Assembly: GCA_021789595.1 (NCBI GenBank)
Contig: JAJYJJ010000012.1
Location: 1-64,000 of the forward strand
Source of the DNA: Nitrospirota bacterium
Lineage (GTDB): Bacteria; Nitrospirota; Thermodesulfovibrionia; UBA6902; JAJYJJ01
Length of the DNA stretch: 64,000 bases
Reading direction: 5' to 3'
Every line of letters begins with the position of its first letter. The stretch's first letter is position 1. A program made the translations under genes and the position numbers. Below, piece after piece: positions 4,669 to 50,999 of the stretch. The notes under the pieces are model-generated. The model saw nothing but the letters and a program-made list of their open reading frames with translations. It was not told the DNA's origin and made no database searches.

Positions 4669-5904
4669 CTATGGTGATACTGTGAGTATCTTCCTGACAA
4701 CATCAGGGTGATTGGCGATAAACCTCAGCTCATCGTCTGTCAGCGGTTTTTGTGTATGGAGATTGGCATACTGCGCAAGTTCTAATATATTCCTTGCATC
4801 TGCATCTGTAGTAAAATGGATGCCGAGCTTGTCATAGACATGTCTGAACCCCTTTATGCCGCCGTATTCTCCAGTTGTTATGATCCTTCCTGTTTCAAGG
4901 AGCTCTACCTCACCTCTGCCAACATCTTCAGGGTCGTAGAGTTCATAATTGCGTCTGTCCTTTAATGCCCCGTCTGCATGTATCCCTGATTCATGGGCAA
5001 AGGCATTTGCCCCAACGCCCGGCTGGTTTATTGGTATCGGGATATTAAAGGCATAGGATGCATATCTTGCAATCTTCCATGCCTTCTTGAGATTAACATG
5101 CTCATCAAGAGGGACCTTATGCTTGAGTCCGTGCGAGAATTTAAAGGCAAGTATTGTTGACACAAGGTCGCAGTTGCCAGCACGCTCACCATAGCCATTT
5201 ATCGTTGTGTTTATGTATGCGTCTACTCCGCTTTCAACCGCGCCCTGGGCGCCTGCAACAGATACGGCCTCTGCCATTCCAAGGTCATTATGACAGTGCA
5301 TCTCTATGGGAAACTTGGTTGCAAGTGCAAGCGCCTTAATCCTCTCATAGATAGTAATCGGGTCATCTGCCCCAAGCGTGTCGCAATATCTAAACCTGTC
5401 TGCACCTGCCTCTTTACCTGCTATAACAAATTCTATCAGCCTGTCAAGTTCTGTCCTTGAGGCATCCTCTGCATTTATGCCGACTGTCTCAGCCCCATGC
5501 TCCCTCGCAAGTTTAACCGCTTCTGTCAGGGATTTGATTATGTCCTTCCATGTCTTTTTACCCTGGAATTTGCCTTTCAACATTATCTCGGATGTGGACA
5601 TGGATATATTCAGATGTTTTATCTCCGGGCAGTTTTTAAATGTAAGGTTTACATCCTCAGGTATGGCCCTGCACCAGCCCTCAAGGTGCAGCCTCTTTAT
5701 AACCTTTAGCTTGACAAGTTCTAAATTCGCATTGATGTAGTTTATCTCATGCTTTAATGTGGGGAAGCCAACCTCGCTCTGGTATACACCCATCTCGTCA
5801 AGGTAGATGTTGAGCATGGTCTTTGAGAGTTTCGGCAGAAGTATCCTTGATGTCTGGACACCATCCCTGTTAGTTACATCAATAAGATATACCTTGTTAG
5901 TCAT
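4669..5904 (-). CDS. Re-type citrate synthase / homocitrate synthase family enzyme
   Basis: The 411-residue protein is a DRE-TIM metallolyase of the isopropylmalate/homocitrate synthase family. It starts with YLIDVTNRDGVQTS (in the DxTxRDG region), has the metal-binding MHCHNDLGMA and the NGYGERAGNCDL segment, and then AFAHESGIHADGALK. It lacks the long LeuA regulatory domain. Its neighbour is isocitrate dehydrogenase rather than leuBCD or nif genes, so I infer Re-citrate synthase, the anaerobe enzyme known from Clostridium kluyveri and several sulfate reducers; NifV-type homocitrate synthase is the main alternative. There is no sign of a Si-citrate synthase in the window. Confidence 0.75.
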   Translation of the reverse strand: MTNKVYLIDVTNRDGVQTSRILLPKLSKTMLNIYLDEMGVYQSEVGFPTLKHEINYINANLELVKLKVIKRLHLEGWCRAIPEDVNLTFKNCPEIKHLNISMSTSEIMLKGKFQGKKTWKDIIKSLTEAVKLAREHGAETVGINAEDASRTELDRLIEFVIAGKEAGADRFRYCDTLGADDPITIYERIKALALATKFPIEMHCHNDLGMAEAVSVAGAQGAVESGVDAYINTTINGYGERAGNCDLVSTILAFKFSHGLKHKVPLDEHVNLKKAWKIARYASYAFNIPIPINQPGVGANAFAHESGIHADGALKDRRNYELYDPEDVGRGEVELLETGRIITTGEYGGIKGFRHVYDKLGIHFTTDADARNILELAQYANLHTQKPLTDDELRFIANHPDVVRKILTVSP

Positions 5905-14098: not shown

Positions 14099-15556
14099 CT
14101 AAATTTTCGGTTTCCTCTCGTGCCAATCTGTTGACTGTTCATAGGCATAAGCAGCCTTCAGTATTGTCTCTTCGTCAAAATGTTTCCCGATAAGCTGTAG
14201 CCCAATCGGTAAATTATTAGATGTGAAACCGCATGGGATAGAGATCCCCGGCACCCCTGCGAGGTTTACAGAGATGGTGAATATATCGGAGAGATACATC
14301 TGCAAGGGGTCTTCTGTCTTTTCCCCAAGCCTGAATGCCGCAGTTGGAGCTGTTGGAGTGACAATGACATCAACAGACTTGAATGCCTCATCAAAATCCC
14401 TTTTTATCAATGTCCTCACCTGCTGGGCCTTTTTGTAATATGCCTCGTAATAGCCTGATGAGAGGGCATATGTGCCGAGCATGATCCTCCTTTTAACCTC
14501 TGCGCCAAAGCCCCTTGCCCTTGTATTCATATACATTTCAAGTAAGTCTTTGCCTGCTTCCCTGAAACCATATTTAACGCCGTCGTATCTTGCAAGATTG
14601 GATGATGCCTCTGATGTTGCAAGGATGTAGTATGTTGCTATTGCATAGCCTGTATGGGGCAGTGTCACCTCTACAGGGACTGCACCGAGAGACTCAAGTC
14701 TTTTTATCGCTTCCCTGACAGAGACATCCACATCCTTATCCATCCCCTCGATAAAATACTCCTTTGGTATGCCGATCCTCATCCCCTTTATCTCCATGCC
14801 TAAGACTGCGGTAAAATCAGGCGCTGTAACAGGGGCAGAGGTCGAATCCATCGGGTCATGCCCTGATATGACATTCATCAATATTGCCGAATCCCTCACA
14901 TCTTTGGTTATAGGGCCTATCTGATCAAGGGATGATGCAAATGCAACAAGGCCGTATCTCGATACACGTCCATATGTGGGCTTTAAGCCAACAACACCGC
15001 AGAGCGCTGCTGGCTGTCTTATGGAGCCTCCTGTGTCTGAGCCAAGGGCAGCGATGCATTCATCCCCTGCCACCGCTGCTGCAGAGCCTCCACTTGAGCC
15101 TCCCGGAATCCTTTCTAAATCCCATGGGTTTCTTGTTGTAAAAAAGGCAGAGTTCTCAGTGGATGAACCCATGGCAAACTCATCGAGATTTGTCTTTCCA
15201 GTAAGCACATATCCCTGCTCTAAAAATCTTGATGTGACAGTGCTTTCATATGGAGGTATAAAGTTTTCGAGTATCCTTGATGAGCATGTAGTTCGGATTC
15301 CATTTATGCACATATTGTCCTTTATAGCAATTGGAATGCCGCAGAGCAGAGGAAAATCCCCTGATAAAATCCGCCTGTCTGCCGCATCTGCACTTGCCAT
15401 TGCCATATCCCTTGTGACAGTGACATAGGCATGAACCCTATCATCAAGCTCATCAATCCTCTTAAGGACAGAGGCTGTCACATCCTTTGATGTTACCTCT
15501 CCTTTTTTAAGCAGACCGTGTATCTCAGCTATCGTCTTTCTATAGAGTCCCAACAT
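14099..15556 (-). CDS. gatA: GatA, amidase subunit of Glu/Asp-tRNA amidotransferase
   Basis: GatA releases ammonia from glutamine for tRNA-dependent transamidation. The amidase signature is present: the catalytic Lys in [11 protein letters not shown], the [17 protein letters not shown] segment, [13 protein letters not shown] with the two catalytic serines, and [10 protein letters not shown]. The length (485) is normal. AGGAGG sits only two bases from the annotated ATG but five bases from the TTG codon immediately after it, so initiation may be at the second codon. gatB is separated from it by the restriction/toxin island. Confidence 0.95.
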
Positions 15557-50249: not shown

Positions 50250-50999
50250 ATGAATACAATAAATGTAGCAAAAGCTAAAGATACAAAAACATCTCTATTA
50301 GCCTTCATTATTCTTATCTCCTTGCTCTTAGTATTTTATTCTTATACCCTTGCAGTGGCACAGGATCGGCAACCGAGGATAGCCATTTCTGCTGAGACAT
50401 TTGATTTTGGAAAGGTCCCTCAGGGCAAGAAACTGACACACAGGTTTAAAGTAAAAAACATCGGTAAAGGTGAACTCGTTATAGAAAAGGCCGTTCCATC
50501 CTGAGGCTGCACAATCGTATCTGCCAGTTTGGGCAGCATTGCTCCAGGCTCTTCCAAGCAAATGATTGTATCCATAGATACCAGCGGCAAGATGGGCAGG
50601 ATTTTAAAGTCTGTTACAATTTACAGCAACGACCCTGTAAGCCCGACAAAGATAGTGAGACTGACAGCCGAAATAATAGACACAAACCACCCATCAGGCA
50701 TTGTTGGCAAAAAAATATTTGATAAATCCTGTGCACGATGCCATGTTGATAGGGGAGAAGGAAACTATGGAAAGGCACTCTTTATTGCTGATTGCTCCAT
50801 GTGCCACAGCCTTACAACCCAAAGAAAGAGTGCATCATCTATCTGGCAATTACGCATACTCACCGAGGATATGTTAAGGAGCAGGATAAGTAATGGTTAT
50901 CCCGGGTTTATAATGCCAGGCTTTTACAAGGCAGTGGGCGGCCCGCTTGACGACAAGCAGATAGAGTCCCTCATAAGGTTTATAAAGGCTAAGGATTGA
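50250..50999 (+). CDS. DUF1573-cytochrome c protein with in-frame UGA, candidate selenoprotein
   Basis: Read through TGA at 50502-50504 the 249-residue protein has a signal anchor (residues 15-36), a DUF1573 domain (about 45-150) and a C-terminal cytochrome c domain with two heme motifs, CARCH and CSMCH. DUF1573 has the conserved SCGCT; here the codon order is Ser-UGA-Gly-Cys-Thr (SUGCT), so the UGA sits exactly at the conserved Cys. The frame stays open on both sides. A SECIS-like hairpin follows. AGGGG lies upstream of the ATG. Alternatives are a nonsense mutation or sequencing error, or two short genes. Confidence 0.7.
50502..50540 (+). promoter_or_regulatory. candidate bacterial SECIS element
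   Basis: Seventeen to twenty-two bases after the UGA codon, CTGCC (50521-50525) pairs with GGCAG (50532-50536) around a six-base loop AGTTTG. The second loop base is G and the loop begins 21 bases after the UGA, which fits the published bacterial SECIS pattern of a G among the first two loop bases at 16-37 bases. A lower four-pair stem CAAT (50512-50515) with ATTG (50538-50541) is separated by an internal loop. Confidence 0.6.

Follow-up and report, generated by a model that had tools for sequence, protein, structure and literature searches.

A predicted selenoprotein joining a DUF1573 domain to a diheme cytochrome c in Nitrospirota

Selenocysteine (Sec) in DUF1573 proteins is already on record. 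The selenoprotein 'OS_HP2, pfam07610' is tabulated in one survey (PMC2398784), and the tables of two others list a DUF1573 domain-containing protein with the motif UGC, credited to Zhang and Gladyshev 2007 (PMC9312934, PMC13188914). NCBIfam also holds a 98-residue domain model, NF041425, named 'OS_HP2 family (seleno)protein'. The first-pass annotation of the DNA studied here, made from the sequence alone, did not count DUF1573 among the known Sec families, and in this it was mistaken. Sec-containing c-type cytochromes have likewise been tabulated, namely ExtKL and an octaheme cytochrome of the tetrathionate reductase family (PMC13188914); these resemble the protein described below in combining Sec with c-type heme, but they are multiheme proteins that belong, by their descriptions, to other families.

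The gene analysed here lies in a 64-kb stretch of Nitrospirota DNA (64,000 nucleotides; hereafter the window). Its product shares the domain of the OS_HP2/DUF1573 family (PF07610, NF041425; Zhang and Gladyshev 2007-2008), with Sec first in the UGC motif, here within S-U-G-C-T. It differs from the proteins modelled by NF041425 in carrying a diheme cytochrome c domain, and it scores 71.9 bits (with U given as C) against a curated cut-off of 100. Although the model matches all 24 fusions tested, nine single-domain Sec-DUF1573 proteins from the phylum (58-87 bits) and one further fusion also fall below the cut-off. Since the window protein and these ten homologues, each scored individually, all fall short, ordinary annotation would probably cut such genes at the UGA. 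A DUF1573-cytochrome c fusion is not mentioned in the published selenoprotein tables and passages compared, a set that does not extend to the original 2007 OS_HP2 paper, and we found little literature on the Nitrospirota selenoproteome. Within that material, what looks new is the DUF1573-diheme cytochrome c subfamily of Nitrospirota, rather than DUF1573 as a Sec family. The evidence for this one selenoprotein subfamily is unusually clean, comprising a UGA at the same codon, a covarying SECIS, a Sec/Cys switch and the distribution of selA.

Gene, domains and selection across the TGA

From the ATG at 50250 the frame is open to its stop save for one in-frame TGA, exactly where the first-pass annotation had placed it (Table 1). 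In the read-through product P-S-U-G-C-T occupies residues 83-88 (context KAVPS-U-GCTIVSASLGS), and the TGA coincides with the first Cys of the DUF1573 S-C-G-C-T motif, a replacement also noted at first pass and borne out by the Cys found at this site in homologues. An open frame of this kind is rarer than the hairpin described below: of all the TGAs in the window, just two have more than 80 open codons before them and more than 150 after. The other one, at 14922 (+ strand, flanks 14649-15425), was rejected as an artefact because it lies antisense to gatA (14099-15556, - strand).

Table 1. Features of the predicted selenoprotein gene (window coordinates)
Feature	Coordinates	Strand	Remarks
Predicted selenoprotein gene	50250..50999	+	249 aa, Sec at residue 85; stop TGA 50997-50999
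TGA predicted to be read as Sec	50502..50504	+	first position of UGC (Sec-Gly-Cys) motif
Hydrophobic, putative export segment, ~residues 17-38	50298..50363	+	from translation; helix 6-39 in structure model
DUF1573 domain (PapD/ASH-like Ig fold), residues 45-140	50382..50669	+	Pfam
Cytochrome c domain, residues 153-246	50706..50987	+	Pfam Cytochrom_C; two CxxCH
Predicted bacterial SECIS element, apical stem-loop CUGCC-AGUUUG-GGCAG	50521..50536	+	compensatory changes in relatives

From the N-terminus the protein consists of a putative export segment, the DUF1573 domain and the diheme cytochrome c domain. The fusion is genuine, as had been proposed, and Pfam matches both parts; the DUF1573 match has an E value of 6e-23 and scores 81.1 bits against a gathering score of 26.1. 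The CxxCH motifs lie at residues 161-165 and 182-186, and Met222-Pro223 is conserved. Two CxxCH motifs occur in every fusion examined and an N-terminal hydrophobic segment is present here, features expected of a c-type cytochrome; the protein is thus predicted to be exported and to carry two covalently attached c-type hemes. A structure model of high confidence (pLDDT 90.6) keeps the Ig-like and cytochrome domains separate and has residues 84-87 forming the turn that links two strands of the former, and a fold search returned PDB 2qsv and HYDIN PapD-like domains as the nearest solved structures.

In relatives the whole length is conserved on both sides of the TGA. Downstream of the TGA, dN/dS among close pairs is approximately 0.06-0.23, a level comparable to that of the stretch before it and lower in most pairs. 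Across 24 aligned proteins the Cys/Sec at position 85, Cys87, the heme cysteines and histidines and Met222 are invariant. This combination of purifying selection after the TGA and invariant key residues excludes decay of the gene.

The hairpin downstream of the UGA

The hairpin consists of CUGCC (50521-50525), a loop AGUUUG with G in second position (50526-50531) and GGCAG (50532-50536). The 5-bp stem and six-base loop are therefore as first described, but the 21 bases given as the distance to the stem in fact separate the UGA from the loop, the stem itself starting 17 nt downstream of the UGA. Taken alone the hairpin is weak evidence, because a 5-bp stem with a 6-nt loop and G in second position follows 4.8% of the TGAs in the window (26% by looser rules). 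Folding energy was dropped as support, being ordinary when compared with shuffled sequences (z -0.10), and the window contains no Rfam families.

The relatives are more informative. When 22 Sec genes were aligned, without gaps, over a 6-bp stem, 93.9% of cells were paired and two-sided changes were present in five of the six stem pairs. None of 500 shuffles reached the observed covariation, slid controls were 24-56% paired, and RNAalifold recovered the same stem unaided. The AGTT of the loop is invariant in the aligned Sec genes, with a G within the first two loop positions. Seven Cys genes aligned by the same method were 42.9% paired and had no covariation.

The same contrast holds over 93 distinct fusion proteins: at least four of the six pairs, together with an AGT loop at the fixed offset, were present in 35/36 Sec genes and in 2/57 Cys genes (Fisher p 5e-22, a value that ignores kinship), the two Cys cases being partial look-alikes. 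The sole exception among the Sec genes, L094 from Acidobacteriota, has a shifted stem and a 5-nt loop. Since only three changes between Sec and Cys are needed on the tree, more weight falls on the covariation seen among the Sec genes themselves. Conservation and covariation among the relatives lift the predicted element far beyond chance.

In another Acidobacteriota genome (L162) the TGA is followed by GTTGCC-AGTTC-GGCAAC. The closest relative of L094 (L098, Acidobacteriota, ~4716-5339; 68% identity) has TGC and keeps an AGTTCG loop with a broken stem, which looks like a recent Sec/Cys exchange.

Sec and Cys forms and the selenocysteine machinery

The first-pass annotation had proposed searching for homologues with TGA, TGC or TGT at this codon. 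Exactly this codon is TGA in 36 distinct fusions, counting the present gene (35 in one Nitrospirota clade and one in Acidobacteriota), and TGC or TGT in 57; Trp never occurs at the site. Of 47 genomes searched in the order, only one other has the fusion; it is 45% identical to the present one and likewise has TGA at this codon. In the phylum (396 genomes) 29 genomes carry the fusion with TGA, and selA is present in 28 of these; none was seen in the exception, G333, an assembly that is 89% complete. A further 16 genomes have the fusion without TGA, ten of them lacking selA and six retaining it. Sec is therefore dispensable to the fusion.

Scanning named genomes yielded 80 loci, some of them already known from the phylum search. 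Loci of the phylum search agree exactly in sequence score and motif with named Nitrospirota records (L042 and L069, for example), and this agreement puts the window in Nitrospirota. Here the Sec forms came from Nitrospirota assemblies, Thermodesulfovibrio-like ones among them, and from the single Acidobacteriota assembly with L094. Cys forms came from Cyanobacteriota (Melainabacteria/Vampirovibrionia), Bacteroidota, Ignavibacteriota, a PVC-group assembly and an Acidobacteriota assembly, and are known also from other Nitrospirota classes. They share the two domains and the two CxxCH motifs and have C-G-C at the site, but differ in the TGC/TGT codon and, the two look-alikes apart, in the absence of a SECIS. 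The gene in the window represents the Sec form of a DUF1573-cytochrome c fusion whose counterparts in other phyla carry Cys. Sec appears to have arisen mostly through a single gain within the Nitrospirota clade; Acidobacteriota would have gained it a second time or received it by transfer.

In each of three genomes (G350, G395 and G260) the DUF1573-cytochrome c gene is present twice, both times with a TGA; in G395 one copy contains an internal TAG and TAA as well and may be decaying. Four single-domain DUF1573 genes (L150, L151, L152 and L153, in G414, G201, G393 and G168 respectively) have an in-frame TGA and an AGTTC SECIS-like loop, with U-K-R-A-T or U-R-A-C-T replacing UGC, such that Sec is kept and the nearby Cys is lost or moved. 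Because U-K-R stands in place of U-G-C in single-domain relatives (L150-L152), Cys does not always accompany Sec in proteins other than the fusions, and a Sec-Cys pair is not required throughout the wider DUF1573 family.

The host genome (2.23 Mb, 99% complete) contains all four of the genes selA, selB, selC and selD, for which a check had been advised. selB adjoins selA. A tRNA-Sec with anticodon TCA scores 71 bits, and a second match to the tRNA-Sec model (55.5 bits, above the gathering score) adjoins a gene that reads like yedF. These matches (genome G000: L002 1497-1594 and L003 ~1501-1595, on contigs C4 and C33) both exceed the Rfam gathering score; ARAGORN confirms only the first. Neither adjoins selB, which is on contig C27; according to a passage in a review, selC overlaps selB in some Nitrospirae. 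The selD gene (L029 1393-2502) has its own in-frame TGA, in the motif RAAGUAGK, and is likely itself to encode a selenoprotein.

Taken together, the TGA at the same codon, the covarying hairpin, the machinery and the purifying selection argue that this is a real selenoprotein gene and not a pseudogene. We put the probability that it encodes an exported selenoprotein with Sec at the conserved Cys at about 0.95. The central proposal of the first-pass annotation, Sec at that Cys with a SECIS downstream, is in this way strongly supported by conservation, covariation and the presence of the Sec machinery.

Possible roles and competing readings

We propose that SelB with Sec-tRNA(Sec) would bind the AGUU-loop SECIS just downstream of the UGA, so that Sec would be inserted at residue 85 instead of a stop, and that the product would then be exported and fitted with its two hemes. 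The Sec-Gly-Cys in the Ig-like turn would probably act as a reversible selenenylsulfide/selenol pair, exchanging electrons with the fused diheme cytochrome. Such a protein might serve periplasmic electron transport linked to a thiol, peroxide, sulfur or metalloid substrate, the step, its direction and the substrate being conjectural. Strained disulfides can form within Cys-x-Cys motifs, and Sec makes for a lower potential and faster exchange; a redox switch fits these properties. We regard a redox role of the pair with electron exchange to the hemes as a tentative proposal, somewhat short of an even chance. Slightly more doubtful is the specific version in which the Nitrospirota proteins, with a few from Acidobacteriota, form a selenoenzyme subfamily whose periplasmic Sec-Cys switch on a diheme cytochrome is a selenium-based thiol/sulfur oxidoreductase in which the hemes, in place of NADPH, thioredoxin or glutathione, are the direct partners in electron exchange. 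The gene neighbourhoods of the fusion loci hold no conserved operon partner that could name a substrate. What most often lies close by, at 14 of the Sec loci, is a convergent gene whose product looks by eye like a DksA/TraR-type protein.

The main rival to the redox switch is a soft-metal site: the protein would still be a selenoprotein, but its Sec-Gly-Cys would bind a metal or metalloid, to be oxidised or reduced by the cytochrome domain, with no Se-S cycling. Cys-x-Cys is a common soft-metal ligand and, as described above, lone-Sec relatives exist. Several of the Sec families tabulated beside DUF1573 also handle mercury or arsenic (PMC13188914). However, metal-resistance neighbours were not found around the fusion loci, and neither the structure model nor the fold search indicated a metal site; we consider this reading unlikely. 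Because the Sec-Cys motif and the hemes sit on a single polypeptide, electrochemistry offers a way of testing what DUF1573 does.

Three further readings fare much worse. Decoding of UGA is often inefficient, and the 84-residue product of a stop at the UGA might in principle be the functional protein, with read-through as a minor event. Against this, purifying selection after the UGA is comparable to that before it, and both heme sites, along with half of the DUF1573 domain, lie beyond the UGA, making the idea highly improbable. The still fainter suggestion that the TGA is a sequencing error or a fresh nonsense mutation in a pseudogene could appeal to the single copy of the gene in a draft assembly of 36 contigs. 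It is already refuted by conservation, as the same TGA recurs in dozens of separate assemblies, in proteins some 35-45% identical to this one, the sequence after it is under purifying selection and the hairpin covaries; the case raised at first pass, in which all homologues have Cys and this copy is decaying, is thus not what we observe. Equally negligible is the notion that the TGA is read as Trp or another residue under a changed code, since, while any read-through would keep the frame open, the gene ends at a TGA where its relatives end too, those relatives have Cys and not Trp at the site, and the in-frame TGA is accompanied by the SECIS and selA.
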